Assembly (NCBI GenBank): GCA_016937155.1
Contig: JAFGWM010000024.1
Coordinates: 1 to 64,000, forward strand
Reading direction: 5' to 3'
Source of the DNA: Deltaproteobacteria bacterium
GTDB lineage: Bacteria; Myxococcota_A; Polyangia; HGW-17
DNA: 64,000 nucleotides
Shown: piece by piece, positions 14,262 to 23,566 of the stretch
Layout: each line of letters opens with the position of its first letter
How positions within the stretch are numbered: the first letter of the stretch is position 1
Translations under genes and position numbers: made by a program
Notes under the pieces: model-generated
The model's input: the letters and a program-made list of their open reading frames with translations, nothing else
Databases searched by the model: none
What the model was told of the DNA's origin: nothing

Positions 14262-14597
14262 ATGAAACATATTACAGCAATTTTACTAGCATCGGCGTTT
14301 TTATTTGCCGCATGTTCAACACAGCGGGTTTTAGTAGAATCGCATCTTCCAAACCAGGTCCGGCTGACCAGTCAACAGCAGGGCTGTAAATATCACAAAG
14401 GTGAACTGGTTGCTTATGGCGCATGGGGAGCCTGGGGTCAGAAGTCAACAGCAAATCTTGTTGAAGGAGCGAAAGGTCCAGTAAGAGTGGAATTTAAAAA
14501 CACTCCCGGAAGCTGGCTTTTAACAGCACTTTTATGTCCTTTCACACTCTGTTTTGTTCAGTTTAAAACCCTTGAAGTTTACGAATGTGCGGAGTAA
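14262..14597 (+). CDS. Small lipoprotein, Bor-like, paralogue A
   Basis: A 111-residue lipoprotein (MKHITAILLASAFLFAAC, lipobox FAAC). The mature part has PNQVRLTSQQQGCKYHKGEL, a short hydrophobic stretch LLTALLCPFTLCFVQF and the ending TLEVYECAE. Size, layout and the C-terminal LEVYEC recall the phage-derived Bor/Iss serum-resistance lipoproteins, but similarity is weak. It is followed five bases later by a second gene of the same design; the two look like an old tandem duplication. GGAGG lies six bases before the start. Confidence 0.6.
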   Translation: MKHITAILLASAFLFAACSTQRVLVESHLPNQVRLTSQQQGCKYHKGELVAYGAWGAWGQKSTANLVEGAKGPVRVEFKNTPGSWLLTALLCPFTLCFVQFKTLEVYECAE

Positions 14598-14601
14598 GAA
14601 T

Positions 14602-14961
14602 ATGAAAAAATTAATTTTTGTTTTAACTCTAGGTATGATTGGTATTATTGGTTCTTCCTGCACAACCGTGAGGATCGTAGCCCCTCCGGGAACTCAGGTA
14701 ACTCTGGCTAGCCGAAATGCAAAATGCAACTGGGTGAAAAGACGCAAAGTTGTTTATCTTTACGGTGTTCCACTTAACTGGACAGTTTTTAATGAACTTC
14801 TTGCCGGTGTGAGACAGCCTGTTAAAATCCAGATTTTAAACACATGGTGGGATAATTTCCTCTCAAGTGCTTCCTCTAGTCATGACAGAAAAGGTCGCAG
14901 CAGAAACGAAATTGAAATCAAAACTATGGACGTTTATTCCTGTGTTGAACCTGGCCTTTAA
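14602..14961 (+). CDS. Small lipoprotein, Bor-like, paralogue B
   Basis: A 119-residue lipoprotein (MKKLIFVLTLGMIGIIGSSC, lipobox GSSC). The mature part mirrors its upstream neighbour: PPGTQVTLASRNAKCNWVKR matches the GTQV/NQV..T...CK.HK region, then a YLYG motif matching AYG, and the ending IKTMDVYSCVE matches FKTLEVYECAE. The middle has a Ser-rich insert. The start at 14602 follows GGAG by seven bases. Cotranscribed with the first; the function is unknown. Confidence 0.6.
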   Translation: MKKLIFVLTLGMIGIIGSSCTTVRIVAPPGTQVTLASRNAKCNWVKRRKVVYLYGVPLNWTVFNELLAGVRQPVKIQILNTWWDNFLSSASSSHDRKGRSRNEIEIKTMDVYSCVEPGL

Positions 14962-15147
14962 ATTAAATTCTTTTTCCCCTCTCTGCAAATCTAAGAATCA
15001 ATAAATTTTATATAATTTCAGATATTTAATTTCATGGAGATACGGCTAAGTTTTCTCTGCAATACTGGAGCATACTTGACGTGGACTTTTTTATGGTCAC
15101 ATTTTTTCTATCAGTGCTGCTGACTCACTGAAAAATTGGAATCTTAC

Positions 15148-15846
15148 ATGAATATAAAACCGGTAATAGATCACGATATATGGAAATCAGAGAGTTTTCT
15201 AAATTCACATCTTCCTGATAACTTTCTTTTATCTGTATTTATCTATGCACTTATAGCGTGGGCTGTGACTGTACTTGATATGATGGTACCTTCCTTATCA
15301 AGAATTATGAGAGCAAATGGACACAATGTTTTCGAACAGGGAAGATATATTAATCTTGTCTGGGGAGTTTTTGCTCATGGGAGCATTTCACACTATCTTT
15401 CAAACATGATGTATATTGTAATTTTCGGAAGTCTGATAAGTGGATACTTCGGACACAGGATTTTCTGGTTCATGCTTTTCCCTGCAGCACTTATCACCCA
15501 TGGTATATCGCTCTACTCTTACAGTCCCAACACTACTCTGATTGGTTCAAGCGGGTTTGTTTTTATAATAATGCCTTACTGGATAATACTCCATTACTTG
15601 TCCACAAAGCATAATGACGGATTGAGAAGAGGTCTTAAAACTGCAGGATTTGCAATCATGATGCTCTACCCCATGAGCTTCAAGCCCACAACATCATACC
15701 GCACACATTATATAGGAATGATAGCTGGAATAATATTAGGACTCATTTCCGGACAGGTTTTGAAGAATGACATCAGAAGAAGAAACATTGAATACTGCAG
15801 TGAAAAAACTGTTATTAGGGATACGGGATTATTCCACAATTCCTGA
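15148..15846 (+). CDS. Rhomboid-family intramembrane serine protease
   Basis: A 232-residue membrane protein with about six hydrophobic helices. The rhomboid signatures are HYLSNMMY (the H-x-x-x-N of helix 2), LIGSSGFVF (GxSG with the catalytic Ser, helix 4) and YRTHYIGMIAG (catalytic His, helix 6). It would cleave membrane segments of other proteins. It overlaps by 18 bases, tail-to-tail, the gene of a protein carrying a C-terminal-type sorting tag. Since rhombosortases are rhomboids that process such tags, a substrate relation is conceivable but is inference. The ATG at 15148 is used rather than the TTG at 15136. Confidence 0.85.
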   Translation: MNIKPVIDHDIWKSESFLNSHLPDNFLLSVFIYALIAWAVTVLDMMVPSLSRIMRANGHNVFEQGRYINLVWGVFAHGSISHYLSNMMYIVIFGSLISGYFGHRIFWFMLFPAALITHGISLYSYSPNTTLIGSSGFVFIIMPYWIILHYLSTKHNDGLRRGLKTAGFAIMMLYPMSFKPTTSYRTHYIGMIAGIILGLISGQVLKNDIRRRNIEYCSEKTVIRDTGLFHNS

Positions 15847-18800
15847 TGAAACAGTGTAAACCTCAACGAAATATCTCAAAGCCGGATTTCCCAGAATATC
15901 CTGCTCAGCATGAAGATTGACTGCGTAATTTGAAATATAAAGTCTTGGACCCTTAAGTTCAGTATCAATATAGAAACCGAATGACCCTTCATATGGCTCT
16001 TCACCACCTCTGAGAATCGAAATATCCCAGATGGGATCATTCTCACTGAAATCATAAACACCAATATAAAGTTCCTGATTTGTGGCATCCTGCCAGATCA
16101 GAAATACTTTTGACCCGGCACTCTCGATTGCGGCATCGGCTCCGAAATAATGCTGTACAGGCATTGGAAGGCCGGAGTTATTATCACCGTCATCTTCACG
16201 GAAACCATCATCAATAAGCTCTTCCTGAACCTCGGATGTTGAAAGATTCAGTGAAGCAAAATAAAGAGATTTTTGCATAGAATCCTGGTATACAAAATGC
16301 ACCATATTCTGATCATCATCATCAATGGCATGTGATGCAAACAGTCCTCGGGGAAGAACTGTATCATCATTTGCAGTTACAACCATAGGTTCAACAAAAT
16401 CACCCCCGGACACCTCCTGATAACTGAATTTCAGAGTTTCCTCATACTGGTCATACCAGGAAATAGCGACTCTTCCATCGTCAAATCTTGTGTGTGAAAC
16501 AAAAAGACCTGTACCCTGAGGCCAGTCATCCACAACAGCATCAATATCAGGGAATGGATAGTCCACAGAATCAACAGTGAAAAAAGTCCAGTCAGACGGA
16601 CTCTGTGGCAGGGGTACATTTGCCTGAGCAAATCTTAGTTCACTTGTGAGACCAGTCCCTGAAACATTTGGAATATTATTAACCATATAAGCAACACTTG
16701 GCGCTTTATCAGAAGCTCTTATTGTCAGATGATTGAAAAATCCGGCACTTCCGAAATCAGTACCTGTGGGATCTCCGCCGTCATCAAGATCATAGGATGT
16801 AAAATTAGTACCATCGGTTGTGTATGTAATTCTCAGTGATCCGGTGGTGGTATTTCTATGGGCAATTATCGGCTGGCCAACTGTGAGCTCTCCAATTGAA
16901 GTATACTCACCAACATCTTCACCAGCGGCACTGATACCCCACCTCACATCACTTGTGGGAAGGACAACAGGACCTGCCGGAACACCATCAATAAATGACC
17001 AGTCATCGGGTCTGATAATCGCAGGATCTGTATCAGAAGGAAGAGCCTTTGCTATCATTAGATCTCCATAGGTGAGATTATAACTGCTGACCCAGGCATA
17101 CTGACCAATAACGGTTACACTGGAGTGAGGGCCGGGAATTCCCCAGGGAATATCGTTTACACAATCACAAAAGCCCCCGATACACAGTGATATTTCATCA
17201 TCAGGACAGGAAATTCCTGCACAGTCGTCATCAATGCTGCATGAAGGATTTGTATTGTTATCAACGGATTTTTTGTTATCAGCACATCCCGTGGTTATAA
17301 AAGCTGCAATGGCCAAAATACCAAGAGGAAGAATCAATTTTCGGCGAAGTTTAAATCCGGCAAAAACCATTCCCAGAATCAGGAACAGAGAAATACCGGT
17401 ATCTGAGGCTCCTTTGCCGGAAGAACTACAACCAAACATTGAGGTTGTATCTTCAAAAATAAGAGTTCTGGAGGTTACAAACACTTCATGAGTTGAAACG
17501 TTATCCATTTCATCCTTGACTCTTACCTTGAGTATACCTGCACTGGAATATCTGGAAGCATAATCTCCGTCGATAATATTAAAGGAAGACCATTCCGACC
17601 AGGTTTTTCCTTCCAGGATACTGTATTTGAGATCTGAGGAAGATGAAACAAAGTCGTGGCCATTCAGAGTAATTTCACCCTCTGAGCTTTCAACAGTAAG
17701 AGTTGGAGCAACAGTATCCAGAACGAATGGAAGGGTAACAACTTCAAGATTCAGACTTCTTGGATCCCCGGCTCTTCTTCCGCGTATTTCAACAGTGTGT
17801 TTTCCCTGCAGGAAAAGACCAAGATCCTCTATTTCAAGGGTATCTGTTCTTATGAACGGAGACCAGAGACCACGATCAATCCTGTACTGGTATTCCCCGT
17901 CATTACCGTCAAGAGACACAATAATGTATGGACGAGCATTATCAGTGCCCATTAAAGTTGCTCTCAATCTTTCAGGAGAATAAGTCACAGCATCTGTCAG
18001 TTGGGCATCAAAGAGGAAAGGATCCATATCCATTTTCTTTGTTCCCACACTTTTTGAAATTATCTTTGCGTTTATCAGTATCGCATCCTGGGCTGTGGAT
18101 GATTTAAACTCAAGATTGTCAAGTTGGACTATTTTCCAGGTGAGATAGTCACCGTTGGCGTTCAGTTTGGTTATCTCGAAGTTGGGCATCGGAATTGGCT
18201 GAAGTGCGCCGGTGAGCATTGGCATAATCATACCAAGAATTGACGGGAATATAGCTGCAACTTCCGCAGGATCCTCACGGATAAGATCACTGTTAAGAAC
18301 TCTGGCACCAATCAGGGATTCATCCACCGGTCTGAGTACCGGCATAACGGTAACATTACCTTCTTCGTCCACACCTTCTTCAAGATCCATCTGAAGGTGC
18401 ATATCAAGAGCAAGTGTAAGAGCTCTTGCATACCTTCCATTTACAAACGGGTAAAGATCGATCTGAAAATCCTGAAGATAAAGATCAATCAGACCACTGG
18501 CACCACCTGTACCCTGACCTACCTGGAACTGCAGTGCGTTCTGTGGTCTTATAACCAGTTGAAGAGGAGCATCTCCTGCTTTGGGATCTATAATTTCAGC
18601 CATGGACGGAATAAGAACAGAAAAAGTACCGACTTTCACGAGCTCATTATCTTCGGTTCCCATGGTGAGACATAAAGCACCACTGTTAACGATATGAAAA
18701 CCTGCAAGATTAAGCATATCCTGAGTGATTGCAACGCTGACATCTGCCATATCACCATTTTCAAAAACAAGAGCAGCCTGATCATACATACCACTGTACT

Positions 18801-19947
18801 CTTCAATTATTGCCCTTGTAAAAGTCTTCATTCTGTCGGCACTTGCACCACTCACTCCACTTACAACAGAAAGTCCCGTCTGGGTGAGATCAGGAGTTGC
18901 AATGGGGGGAATACATCTGGCTCCCTCTGAATGCTCAGCTACGGAAAATTCATTCTTGGTTTCCCCACGGGTATCCGGGTTTCTGTCAGAGTTAAACCCT
19001 GTGATAATACCAGCAGTGATACCGTGATTTTTAACATCAACATATCCACCACTTATCATCTTCATCTCAAGATTTGCATCAACACCGCTGAAACCTGCAG
19101 AAGCAAGGAAAGAACCCGCATTGATCTGTCCCTCAAGACCGATATCCGGGATTAACTTGTCTATGGTTGGCTGAAGAAGAGGAATAACAAGATTATTGGC
19201 TATCCAGTTTACAATGGCATCACCCACAAATGCATCAAGGATTTCAATATACTGACCAATATTTTCCAGGACCAGAGCATTGATGATACCGTCCACAAAA
19301 GGAATGCAGTTGTTAAGACTGGCCTCGAGACCACTTAGGTCAAGGTTACTCACGGAGTTGATATCCATTCGCAGATAGCCATCTTCGGGTCTTGTCCTGA
19401 GGCCCAGTGCCACACTTCCGGAAAACGGATCATCAACAAAACCAACATCGATACTGCACTGATCAGAAATATTTGAGCCGGCAACTATTATATCTATGTC
19501 AAATCCGAAATAAAGATTGGCCTGAATATCACCGTAGATTTCATCACAGACACTGGAGGACATCACTCCATCCTTGCACTGATCAATGTTGTTCGAGTTT
19601 TCAGTGTTGTCCACAAGAGAAAAATCCAGATCGATATTGGGAAGTTCAATTCCACATCCCAAAGGACAAAAATCAATACCGTAACTGTGACCACTGTCTC
19701 CAACCCAGAAGTTGGGTATAAATGCGATATGCCCGAACTCACCTTCAACATACTGTGGAAGAATTGTTTTGATGGTATCAAACCCGGACTGAGTGATTCT
19801 CAACTGAACACCGTTTTCGATAATCTGATTTGGTGGTAGAGGGCTGTCAAGAGGTTCTATCTCAGAACACCCACCACCGCTACAACTCATTGAAATAGAA
19901 ACAGAAAAAAGAAAAACAAAAGGTAGATAAAATCTGATTTTTTTCAT
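15829..19947 (-). CDS. Two-module lipoprotein with an internal MYXO-CTERM-like tag and second lipobox
   Basis: A 1372-residue protein. It starts at 19947 after GGAGGG and has a lipoprotein signal (FLFSVSISMSC). Module one (about 25-835) is rich in beta strands and Gly/Asp with low similarity to anything I know; it contains Ig-like stretches near 720-830. At residue 840 comes MFGCSSSGKGASDTG, a hydrophobic helix ISLFLILGMVFAGF and FKLRRK, which is exactly the layout of a MYXO-CTERM C-terminal sorting tag. Instead of ending, the frame continues with LILPLGILAIAAFITTGCADN (lipobox Cys at 888), then a Cys-rich segment (about 900-925) and about 450 residues resembling a propeller. An internal ATG at 17370 (residue 860) could give the second part alone. 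Confidence 0.75.
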   Translation of the reverse strand: MKKIRFYLPFVFLFSVSISMSCSGGGCSEIEPLDSPLPPNQIIENGVQLRITQSGFDTIKTILPQYVEGEFGHIAFIPNFWVGDSGHSYGIDFCPLGCGIELPNIDLDFSLVDNTENSNNIDQCKDGVMSSSVCDEIYGDIQANLYFGFDIDIIVAGSNISDQCSIDVGFVDDPFSGSVALGLRTRPEDGYLRMDINSVSNLDLSGLEASLNNCIPFVDGIINALVLENIGQYIEILDAFVGDAIVNWIANNLVIPLLQPTIDKLIPDIGLEGQINAGSFLASAGFSGVDANLEMKMISGGYVDVKNHGITAGIITGFNSDRNPDTRGETKNEFSVAEHSEGARCIPPIATPDLTQTGLSVVSGVSGASADRMKTFTRAIIEEYSGMYDQAALVFENGDMADVSVAITQDMLNLAGFHIVNSGALCLTMGTEDNELVKVGTFSVLIPSMAEIIDPKAGDAPLQLVIRPQNALQFQVGQGTGGASGLIDLYLQDFQIDLYPFVNGRYARALTLALDMHLQMDLEEGVDEEGNVTVMPVLRPVDESLIGARVLNSDLIREDPAEVAAIFPSILGMIMPMLTGALQPIPMPNFEITKLNANGDYLTWKIVQLDNLEFKSSTAQDAILINAKIISKSVGTKKMDMDPFLFDAQLTDAVTYSPERLRATLMGTDNARPYIIVSLDGNDGEYQYRIDRGLWSPFIRTDTLEIEDLGLFLQGKHTVEIRGRRAGDPRSLNLEVVTLPFVLDTVAPTLTVESSEGEITLNGHDFVSSSSDLKYSILEGKTWSEWSSFNIIDGDYASRYSSAGILKVRVKDEMDNVSTHEVFVTSRTLIFEDTTSMFGCSSSGKGASDTGISLFLILGMVFAGFKLRRKLILPLGILAIAAFITTGCADNKKSVDNNTNPSCSIDDDCAGISCPDDEISLCIGGFCDCVNDIPWGIPGPHSSVTVIGQYAWVSSYNLTYGDLMIAKALPSDTDPAIIRPDDWSFIDGVPAGPVVLPTSDVRWGISAAGEDVGEYTSIGELTVGQPIIAHRNTTTGSLRITYTTDGTNFTSYDLDDGGDPTGTDFGSAGFFNHLTIRASDKAPSVAYMVNNIPNVSGTGLTSELRFAQANVPLPQSPSDWTFFTVDSVDYPFPDIDAVVDDWPQGTGLFVSHTRFDDGRVAISWYDQYEETLKFSYQEVSGGDFVEPMVVTANDDTVLPRGLFASHAIDDDDQNMVHFVYQDSMQKSLYFASLNLSTSEVQEELIDDGFREDDGDNNSGLPMPVQHYFGADAAIESAGSKVFLIWQDATNQELYIGVYDFSENDPIWDISILRGGEEPYEGSFGFYIDTELKGPRLYISNYAVNLHAEQDILGNPALRYFVEVYTVSSGIVE

Positions 19948-20074
19948 AAGACCCTCCGGATTGGAAAGATAAAACACCAAGCGTTGGTTATTTTAGCCTG
20001 TTTTGGAGCTTTTCGCATTAAATTTTTATAATTATTTCTGGCCAACAACTGATTAAATAAATATATTGCACCTC

Positions 20075-23000
20075 ATGACTGATACTAAAACTGAACCCAG
20101 ACTGCTGTTAATATCAATTTTGCTCTTTTTATCAGGTGCTGCAGGCCTTGTATACGAGGTTATCTGGACAAGGATCCTCCATTATTCTTTTGGCTCTACT
20201 GAAATGGCAGCTGCCACGGTGCTGGCCACATTTATGGGTGGTCTTGCTCTTGGCGGTGCCCTTGGAGGTCGCTTCGCCTCAAAACTACGATATCCAATAC
20301 TGGTTTACGGAATTCTGGAACTGGTGATTGCTCTATACGGCATACTTTTTACTCCCCTTCTCTATCGTATGGATTTCATATATTCAATTACGGGAAGTGA
20401 TGGAGCCCCTTGGCTGCTTACCACACTCCGATTTACCAGTGGCATGATTATAATGCTCATTCCCACAGTGGCGATGGGGGCAACTCTTCCGGTACTGGTA
20501 CAGGGAGTTGTACGAAAAAATGAAGCCGGAAAGGGAATAGCTCTTTTATACTTCATAAATACCCTTGGAGCAGTTGCAGGAACTTTCGGTGCCGGATTTG
20601 CAATAATTCCCCGCTATGGTCTTGATAAGGGAATATATATCGCAGTTGGAACAGGAATTGTGGTTTTTGCTTTTGCTGTGATTATGCAGTGGAAACTGTT
20701 TAAACCATCAGAAGTGACATCTGAAACAACCACGGGAAAATCTTCCCTGAAAACCAGACTCACACCCTTCGCATTGAGACATGGAGTATATTTTGCACTT
20801 GGAATTGCATTCTTTAGCGGTCTTATCTCACTGTCAAACGAGGTGTTGTGGTTCCGGCTTCTGGGAATAATACTGGATGGCACTGTTTATGGCTTCAGCG
20901 CTCTTTTAGGTTCATTTCTGGCGGGACTTGCTTTAGGGTCGCTGTGGATAAGCACAAGACTTGATAAACACAAAGATCCCTGGTCATTATTTGTAAAACT
21001 TCAACTGGGGGCCGCACTGGGGAGTGTATTTACCATTCTTGTGATCCCTCTTATTCCATTCCTCGTCTCAGGATACATCAGTGGTACACCAAAAACTCCC
21101 GGTAGTGTGTTTTTCCTTAAGGTTATTCTTGTATTTTTTACCATTCTTGTTCCAACATTTTTTTACGGAGCATCATTTCCTGTTCTGGTACGGCTGGCAA
21201 GCGTTCAGGGAAAACTTTCAAGAGCTGCAGGAAACATATACAGCCTTAATACCATTGGCTGTATTCTGGGAAGTGCCCTTACCGGAATGATTCTGATTCC
21301 ATGGCTGAAAAACATAAATATGCTTCTCATGATTATGGTTTTCATGTCTGTGATCGTTGCGTTCGCTGCTATTTTCCTTGCAGGAGGAGCAGACACCGAA
21401 AAAGCTGCAATGAGGAAAATCAAACTGTTTGCATTTGTGGCTGTTTCTGTTTTGGGCATCGTAATCCTCAATCCGAATGTCAAGGTGGTACGTCTGGTAA
21501 ATTCCAGATACAGCATTGAAGATTATCAGCATTCCATTGGAAGCAGCGTCAAATCACTTTATGGAGATGACACTGACAGAAAAAATCTTGTATTCGAAGC
21601 TGAGGGGGCAGTAACTGTTGTCACGGTTCATAAACACAAGGATGGTGGCTACAGACTGCGTAATAATGGACTGAATGAAAGCTATCATGCTGACACGGAA
21701 CCGTTTTATGCTGAGGAAATACTATACCTCGGTGCACTACCTTATCTGCTGCATCCAAATCCATCAAAGGCTCTTCTGATTGGACTTGGTGGTGGTGGAA
21801 CCCTTGATGTTTTAAGCCAGCTGGAGTTAAAAAACGTTGAGGTAGCTGAACTGGAACCGGAAGTGGTTAAAGCAAGCCGAATAATGTTCGGGAAAAGAAC
21901 CCATCCCGTTGACAGACAGAATGTGAAACTGCGTCTTGACGATGGAAGAAATGCTCTTCTGAGACATGCAGTGGCAAATCCGCATACCTATGATCTCGTT
22001 ATTTCGCAGCCGTCCCATCCGTGGCTGACAGGCGCTTCAAATCTGTACACAATTGAGCATTTCAGGATTGTCAGGAAAAATCTGAAACCTGGTGGAATAT
22101 TCTGTCAGTGGGTAAATCTGTTCCGAATGAATGAAACCGGCTTCAGAAGTCTTTTGGCTGCGTTCACTGGTGTTTTTGAAGATGGACATATTTTTCAGGT
22201 GGATGAAAACAGTGTATTTCTAATAGGTTCCAATAAAAAATTACCTGTAAATACAGATGTTATATCAAAACACTTCACTGAAAAATACCTCAAACACACG
22301 ATTAAACACTATCAGAGCGGTCTTAACAGAGTTCTCAAGATGTACCGGATTGATTACGAAACTGCTAGGAAACTGGCAAAGGGAGCCAGAATTAACAGTG
22401 ATCACACTCCGGTTATTGAAACTGTACTGCCATGGGTGGGACACAACTCAATGTTCAACGTTACGAAATGGCTTCAAAAACTTGATATCCCATACTATCT
22501 GGAGCCACGTACAGTATCACTGAAAGGAAATTCCAAAGAGGTCTTCAGACAGTATATGAATTATCTTGGAAGTGATCTTGATATTCATTCTCAGGAGCCA
22601 TCAGCCTTAAAGTCCAAACTGGAGAGAATAAACCGGACACTTAAACGCTGGGAAAAATTCCTTGGAGATGATTTCTACAGAATAAAAGCTGATATCCATC
22701 AGAGGATTCAGGATTTCAGTACAAGTGCCATGCTATTGGCAAAAATAAAGGAACCTGAGGTAAAAGACCATAGACTCAGAGCATCCAATCTGTTTCTTGC
22801 AGGTAAATACTCAACTGCAGCATTCCTTTATGCAGTAATTCTCAGCATGGATAATCCCGGTTTTTTCACAAGGGCGCTGTTCAACAAATTATCCATGGGT
22901 TTCTTCAAAATCGGAAATGTCACAAAATCTACCTATGCGAATGGAGATCTTCGTGAATTCACACGGATAATTGAAAAACTGTCCATTCCTTTTCTGACCG

Positions 23001-23566
23001 ACCCGTTGATTACAACCCTGAAGATGGATCCACTTTATCTTGAACGCAGGAATGCAAACCTGTTTGAAATGTCTCTCAGAAAATCCTTCAGAAATAATTC
23101 GGTTATAAATGGAGATGAAGTAACTGCCTATCTGGATGAAGGCGGTGAGGACAGGTCCCTGCTGAAAAAAATTATCTACAATTATGTCAGAAACAGAGAC
23201 ACAAAAAATGCTGATTCCACTATGGTTATTTACCGGAACAGTTCTTCACTTTCTCCGGTTAATTTTGAACTTGCAAAAAAACTGAGAAAAATTGGTTCAG
23301 GTAACCAGGCTATCTATCTATTCAAAAAAGTTCTTGAGGATACTGATCATGGTATAGACAAGTCAGATATACTCAATGAACTTCTGGGAGTAATGATGGA
23401 AACATCTGAAATGAAAGGTTTTTCAAAATTATTCCTGATGTACAAAAAATACGGCACTTCTCAGGAACACAGGAAAGTACAGGAAGGTATTCTCAACAGA
23501 TTCGACCAGTTCAACAGACAACTGATCGAAAAAGGAATAGATCCCAAAGCCCTCCCTAAAAAATGA
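20075..23566 (+). CDS. Membrane-anchored spermidine-synthase-like methyltransferase-fold protein
   Basis: A 1163-residue fusion. Residues 1-455 hold about 12 membrane helices arranged as in the MFS-like half of the 'fused MFS/spermidine synthase' family (LLFLSGAAGLVYEVIWTRIL; SLSNEVLWFRLLGIIL). A cytoplasmic Rossmann domain follows (about 545-760): ALLIGLGGGGTLDVLSQL, VAELEPEVVKASRI, LRLDDGRNALL, YDLVISQPSHPWLTGASNLY, LKPGGIFCQW. The C-terminal 350 residues are helical and look like degenerate TPRs. Known relatives are of uncertain reaction; aminopropyl transfer is not established. No clear ribosome site is seen before the ATG at 20075. It converges on the kinase operon. Confidence 0.8.
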   Translation: MTDTKTEPRLLLISILLFLSGAAGLVYEVIWTRILHYSFGSTEMAAATVLATFMGGLALGGALGGRFASKLRYPILVYGILELVIALYGILFTPLLYRMDFIYSITGSDGAPWLLTTLRFTSGMIIMLIPTVAMGATLPVLVQGVVRKNEAGKGIALLYFINTLGAVAGTFGAGFAIIPRYGLDKGIYIAVGTGIVVFAFAVIMQWKLFKPSEVTSETTTGKSSLKTRLTPFALRHGVYFALGIAFFSGLISLSNEVLWFRLLGIILDGTVYGFSALLGSFLAGLALGSLWISTRLDKHKDPWSLFVKLQLGAALGSVFTILVIPLIPFLVSGYISGTPKTPGSVFFLKVILVFFTILVPTFFYGASFPVLVRLASVQGKLSRAAGNIYSLNTIGCILGSALTGMILIPWLKNINMLLMIMVFMSVIVAFAAIFLAGGADTEKAAMRKIKLFAFVAVSVLGIVILNPNVKVVRLVNSRYSIEDYQHSIGSSVKSLYGDDTDRKNLVFEAEGAVTVVTVHKHKDGGYRLRNNGLNESYHADTEPFYAEEILYLGALPYLLHPNPSKALLIGLGGGGTLDVLSQLELKNVEVAELEPEVVKASRIMFGKRTHPVDRQNVKLRLDDGRNALLRHAVANPHTYDLVISQPSHPWLTGASNLYTIEHFRIVRKNLKPGGIFCQWVNLFRMNETGFRSLLAAFTGVFEDGHIFQVDENSVFLIGSNKKLPVNTDVISKHFTEKYLKHTIKHYQSGLNRVLKMYRIDYETARKLAKGARINSDHTPVIETVLPWVGHNSMFNVTKWLQKLDIPYYLEPRTVSLKGNSKEVFRQYMNYLGSDLDIHSQEPSALKSKLERINRTLKRWEKFLGDDFYRIKADIHQRIQDFSTSAMLLAKIKEPEVKDHRLRASNLFLAGKYSTAAFLYAVILSMDNPGFFTRALFNKLSMGFFKIGNVTKSTYANGDLREFTRIIEKLSIPFLTDPLITTLKMDPLYLERRNANLFEMSLRKSFRNNSVINGDEVTAYLDEGGEDRSLLKKIIYNYVRNRDTKNADSTMVIYRNSSSLSPVNFELAKKLRKIGSGNQAIYLFKKVLEDTDHGIDKSDILNELLGVMMETSEMKGFSKLFLMYKKYGTSQEHRKVQEGILNRFDQFNRQLIEKGIDPKALPKK

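Follow-up and report, generated by a model that had tools for sequence, protein, structure and literature searches.

A MYXO-CTERM-type tag in the middle of a protein, joined to a second lipoprotein signal: a probable precursor of two lipoproteins conserved in Myxococcota

Polyproteins are, to our knowledge, rare in bacteria. One bacterial membrane polyprotein, the cytochrome b/c1 precursor FbcH of Bradyrhizobium, is cut at an internal signal sequence; our literature search found no paper describing this precursor. From Haloferax volcanii, Abdul Halim is said to have described in 2017 an internal archaeosortase substrate, in which a tripartite sorting tag situated away from the C-terminus is processed, and we know of no lipoprotein signal following that tag. 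MYXO-CTERM tags have been shown to be cut by MrtX (PMC11980579). The authors of that work call internal tags rare, and for MXAN_5598 of Myxococcus xanthus, which contains one, they propose a fusion of two genes and a processing of the N-terminal part; internal tags are already on record (PMC11980579). The main text of the same paper does not describe phylum-wide conservation, split genes or a general rule joining tag and signal, part of which its supplementary tables may list.

The window, by which we mean the whole stretch of 64,000 nucleotides analysed here, contains a fused ORF whose parts are collected in Table 1. No stop codon separates the two halves, and after residue 888 the translation goes on for 484 more residues. 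A TTG at 19980, 33 nt upstream of the start, is a possible alternative start and would lengthen the product to 1383 aa. The Cys closing the N-terminal signal is nearly invariant in position in the alignment of N-halves (A2). Residues 837-870 read MFGCSSSGKGASDTGISLFLILGMVFAGFKLRRK; the order of the tag signature, namely a Cys, a hydrophobic helix and an Arg-rich cluster, is found at residues 840-870, about 500 residues before the end of the protein. Residues 871-888 follow as LILPLGILAIAAFITTGC, and here one can recognise a basic n-region, a hydrophobic helix and a small residue preceding a Cys (KLRRK-LILPLGILAIAAFITTG-C), the features of a lipoprotein signal. In this lipobox a T stands at -3 instead of the preferred L, a point against reading the gene as a two-lipoprotein precursor; sequence rules served to recognise the lipoboxes and the helices. 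A Pfam search of the protein returned no family. A sequence-only reading of this DNA had seen a sorting tag in mid-protein, directly followed by a second lipoprotein signal. The translation agrees with this description, and the junctions of the homologues make it more than a chance resemblance.

Table 1. Features of the fused gene, with positions in the window
Feature	Position	Strand	Basis
Fused ORF, 1372 aa	15829..19947	(-)	Translation; open and full length in relatives
N-terminal lipoprotein-type signal, residues 1-22 (MKKIRFYLPFVFLFSVSISMSC22), ending at Cys22	19882..19947	(-)	Sequence by inspection and conservation
N-half, residues 22-840: putative BPI/LBP/CETP-like (TULIP) region, then Ig-like part, ending at the tag Cys	17428..19884	(-)	AlphaFold2, Foldseek, weak Pfam
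Internal MYXO-CTERM-type tag, residues 838-870 (Cys840, helix, KLRRK)	17338..17436	(-)	TIGR03901, homologous junctions, invariance of C840 and R869
Internal signal-peptide-like helix, residues 871-887, lipobox TTG/C	17287..17337	(-)	Sequence; [GASN]C in homologues; standalone C-half genes begin with such a signal
Internal ATG (Met860)	17368..17370	(-)	Start proposed earlier; no SD-like sequence, not conserved
C-half, residues 888-1372: Cys-rich start, then putative beta-propeller	15832..17286	(-)	AlphaFold2, Foldseek

The profile TIGR03901 gives the window protein 15.3 bits, to be compared with a curated cut-off of 20. Thus the earlier naming of a MYXO-CTERM tag holds for the layout and for the invariance of C840 and R869, while the profile match of this one protein stays below threshold. 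It is the homologues which carry the case for the tag: in 68 of 86 junctions the profile is matched with E <= 0.01, and one homologue (L011) reaches 28.4 bits, above the cut-off. Ten matches were counted in the window's own genome, through profile searches of a draft assembly in 85 contigs, and eight tags could be located unambiguously outside the fused ORF. All eight are terminal, with a stop within 2-9 residues after the basic pair, so that the sole internal tag among those located is that of the fused ORF (the weak match L048 was not placed). The same genome encodes a myxosortase-like CPBP protease (L055), which scores below every curated myxosortase cut-off (90.8 bits against 100 for Mrt_core, 96.7 against 250 for MrtP, 90.6 against 195 for MrtC) and which is its best candidate for the enzyme cutting the tag.

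Relatives from the same genus (72% identity), family, order and, at about 30% identity, class have the whole fused frame, and in none of them does a stop interrupt it. Besides the window protein the frame is open in 13 homologues, 12 of them full length and one (L007) cut by the end of its contig, and C840, R869 and C888 are invariant in these 14 aligned proteins. Fused homologues lacking a conserved Cys/RR segment, or a stop codon lost by sequencing error, would have refuted the sequence-only reading; what the relatives have instead is an open frame and these three invariant residues. A family model, whose counts include a paralogous group of similar layout, matches 196 of 290 genomes in a sample of the class and 222 of 379 in one of the phylum. 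The named relatives are MAGs of uncultured Myxococcota and Deltaproteobacteria; many of the genomes surveyed are MAGs, and a few frames are cut by contig ends.

To describe the junction we applied a fixed rule (a Cys, a helix, a basic pair, a helix and [GASN]Cys within 30-90 residues) to 86 distinct fused ORFs, of which six lie outside the class. The rule holds in 86 of 86, and a hairpin of this kind occurs elsewhere in only one of the same 86 ORFs. Because the junctions were already assembled when we formulated this rule, it is the latter count which serves as the informative control. In an 87th fused ORF (L210) the same layout is visible by eye. Over the 86 junctions the distance between the two Cys varies from 34 to 88 residues (median 55), the net charge between them is always positive, from +2 upwards (median +6), and the second Cys is preceded by G in 66 cases, by A in 14, by S in 4 and by N in 2. 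Mean column identity is 19% in the junction, as against 40% in the N-half and 39% in the C-half, a rough comparison, the alignments of the halves comprising 25 sequences each. The junction thus drifts in sequence while its features stay, as expected of a signal which is removed or cleaved.

The sequence-only reading had raised the question of whether relatives encode the halves as separate adjacent genes, and this is the case in three genomes (L144, L199, L192), each split exactly at the junction. In these pairs a canonical tag closes the N-half and the C-half opens with a lipoprotein signal of its own, so that the tag is terminal and the signal N-terminal where both are internal in the primary product of the window's fused gene. 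In L144 the N-half ends in ...GGGCGCSVPRGDTNTGWLFAVPSLAGIAAFGWRRRSSRRDARTKAVK before its stop, the two genes overlap in TGATG, and the next gene begins MNARTCLVGALALTLAGVANPGC; in L199 a GTG start shares bases with the stop (GTGA), and the signal of the following gene ends in FQGC; in L192 an ATG lies 18 nt after the stop and opens MSKTRLALLAALAALAFGC. Eight further N-half genes (L020, L124, L193-L198) end in a terminal tag, and no adjacent C-half was found beside them; for one of these (L196) the contig runs out at this point. G106 has a C-half, with a signal of its own, on another contig. An apparent split in G057 (L203) was not counted, because its N-half frame contains the junction hairpin and breaks further on. 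A tree of 97 N-halves requires the label fused or unfused to change at least eight times, all these changes being forced by well-supported branches, and a fused and a split form (G336 and G460) are sisters within one genus. The tree has no fixed root, and either state, fused or split, may be the ancestral one.

The AlphaFold2 model of the N-half (pLDDT 79.1) finds its best Foldseek matches in BPI (1bp1, E 6e-19), LBP and CETP, with a TM-score to 1bp1 of 0.58 by target length and 0.36 by query length. The TULIP families LBP_BPI_CETP and JHBP of Pfam match weakly, each in 2 of 25 homologues, and a sequence-only search of the PDB with the N-half gave no useful match. The model suggests a two-domain BPI-like TULIP fold, with a putative role in lipid handling. 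Full-length BPI-like TULIPs of bacteria are known in DUF4403 (PMC6791001); this fold is therefore not new to bacteria. For the C-half, the model (pLDDT 85.0, the junction helices being of low confidence) resembles PLL/PHL lectins and sialidases in Foldseek, which suggests a beta-propeller.

As regards the neighbourhood, a Rhomboid-family intramembrane protease (15136-15846, (+), Pfam E 1e-10) is convergent with the fused gene and overlaps its 3' end by 18 nt. We rejected it as a dedicated processing enzyme: it is not adjacent in the nearest relative (L002), and the rhombosortase models do not match it. A motif screen picked out no rhomboid ORF beside the fused gene in other loci. The divergent neighbour (20066-23566, (+), 1166 aa) joins a membrane part of MFS-like aspect to a spermidine-synthase domain and ends in a long C-terminal part, and several relatives have a hydrophobic ORF at the same divergent position. 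Two small overlapping ORFs, 14262-14597 and 14554-14961 (+), have lipoprotein-like starts and similar short sequences, and are possibly tandem duplicates; Pfam assigned no family to either.

The join between tag and export signal recurs in unrelated families. In two genome censuses (G154 and G296), 8 of the 8 internal tags followed by more than 150 aa run directly into an export signal. Of the 66 tags found at E <= 0.01 in the complete genome G154, 58 are terminal. Among the 8 internal ones, five lead directly into an export signal, and three are followed by tails of 39-117 aa rich in Arg. A lipobox follows the tag in the fused TULIP/propeller family, in a NIDO/MopE protein, in an amidase joined to a second lipoprotein and in a heparinase-like protein, while in an Ig/OmpA protein it is a type I signal. 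Reading through the stops of the 58 terminal tags revealed no in-frame lipobox. Six of these 58 genes have a lipoprotein-like start within 60 codons downstream in another frame, and five of the six share the same relative frame, as expected from stop/start overlaps. This suggests that overlapping stop/start pairs may be a common forerunner of the fusions. In G296, which belongs to another class, 16 of the 19 tags examined (of 23) are terminal and the three internal ones all lead into an export signal. Finally, an ORF of 3056 aa in G410 (L282:5849-15016, (+)) contains two internal MYXO-CTERM tags, each directly before a lipobox (LAASGC and VTIGC), which would make three lipoproteins in one frame. 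One signal of this survey, that of L257, has a longer loop and escaped the automatic lipobox test, yet it is clear on inspection by eye.

The domains of this 3056-aa ORF are FG-GAP and cadherin-like/Big_9. At L279:1047-3332 (-), an Amidase_3 protein with a signal and a MYXO-CTERM tag is fused in frame to a second lipoprotein of TolB-like look. At L276:3-2780 (+), a heparinase-like enzyme with its MYXO-CTERM tag is in frame with a second lipoprotein, which resembles another polysaccharide-acting enzyme.

In our view, this gene makes a single precursor from which two lipoproteins would arise, a myxosortase cutting at the tag and signal peptidase II at the lipobox, and we would give this reading a probability of roughly 0.7. 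The N-half would be directed into the Sec pathway by the lipoprotein signal at its start and so be exported; the tag helix would stop the transfer, the Arg cluster staying in the cytoplasm, and the next helix would restart export as an internal signal peptide, so that the C-half is exported too. A myxosortase-type CPBP protease would then cut after a lipidated Cys840 and signal peptidase II before a lipidated Cys888. The products, in a 1:1 ratio, would be a TULIP-like protein with a lipid at both ends and a propeller lipoprotein, the helix-loop-helix linker being discarded. The fused frame, the conserved signals, the natural splits and the recurrence in other families are observations, while the topology, the lipidation, both cuts and the final location are our inference. 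Three readings had been proposed earlier (a polyprotein, an internal start, a membrane hairpin); the polyprotein, with its predicted cleavage, is the best supported of them, by the conserved features of the junction, by the splits at this very point and by the recurrence in unrelated families.

If the junction were left uncut, a two-helix hairpin would hold a single long protein in the inner membrane, both halves being periplasmic and both Cys possibly lipidated. The helix-Arg-helix layout, the charge and the stability of the fusion over the phylum would fit such a protein. It would leave unexplained why an invariant Cys stands on each outer side, in exact tag and lipobox motifs, why the sequence of loop and helices drifts, why separate genes are split at the junction and why N-half genes, paralogues included, end in the tag; hence we regard an uncut protein as unlikely. 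Gram-negative bacteria generally possess signal peptidase II, and one may imagine a single cut, for example by this enzyme at C888, the N-half being held by two helices or by the tag helix. The weak HMM match of the window's own tag would agree with a single cut, but C840 is as invariant as C888 and most homologues have canonical tags, which makes it about equally doubtful.

The internal ATG at 17370, from which the sequence-only reading had considered a separate translation of the second protein, does lie 28 residues before C888. It is nevertheless placed inside helix 1, is not preceded by an SD-like sequence, and its conservation already fails in the nearest relative. Just 2 of the 86 fused junctions have an ATG together with such a sequence, and the split genes show clear stop/start overlaps instead. 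We abandoned this start, and two proteins made from it or from another start in the tag seem very improbable. An error of assembly or a chance recent fusion of neighbouring genes deserves even less credit: although the assembly is a draft in 85 contigs and unfused relatives exist, the same stop-free frame is present in independent genomes across class and phylum, which refutes this explanation for the family.

For the two-lipoprotein precursor, a join which is conserved phylum-wide and which recurs in unrelated genes suggests that lipoproteins may be made as precursors and then cut apart. We lean towards a wider view, in which Myxococcota use a general polyprotein strategy: the join of tag and export signal would be a removable cut-out module, employed across many unrelated families and in one ORF even a second time, at which myxosortase and signal peptidase separate surface or envelope proteins made in fixed ratios. 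Such a standard module, if real, would be a new way of making exported proteins in fixed ratios, with a formal parallel in viral glycoprotein precursors which have an internal signal. It speaks against the cleavage that a fused and a split form might both be workable as long as their halves remain associated. The natural pairs of the two forms offer material on the action of myxosortase and signal peptidase II at internal sites. The annotation would also have to be corrected if the cleavage is real, one gene then giving two mature proteins and three lipidation Cys. Some members of the Myxococcota exchange outer-membrane lipids and proteins, and our results point towards a conserved envelope protein of this phylum which is BPI-like and may handle lipids.

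The names of the models NF033207 (midcut-by-XrtH) and NF058595 (lipo-invert) imply, respectively, sorting in mid-protein and an inverted lipoprotein-like anchor. Both match weakly at some junctions, and our literature search found no paper describing either family. We rejected NF058595 as the family of this protein, since it scores 14.9 bits against a cut-off of 37 and its matches scatter over genomes, controls included. FbcH differs from the fused ORF in that it involves signal peptidase I and respiratory proteins and has no sorting tag, and the internal substrate of Haloferax volcanii in that it is archaeal and ArtA-dependent. Like the fused ORF, MXAN_5598 has an internal tag and then a second exported part, which is an outer-membrane beta-barrel/OmpA part unlike the C-half of the window (PMC11980579); a protein with the same domain make-up in our survey (L270) has a type I signal after the tag and no lipobox. 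With the MYXO-CTERM/MrtX pathway of Myxococcota (TIGR03901, PMC11980579) the window protein shares the Cys, the helix, the Arg cluster and an N-terminal signal. It departs from that pathway in carrying its tag in the middle of the protein, where the tag runs directly into an export signal.
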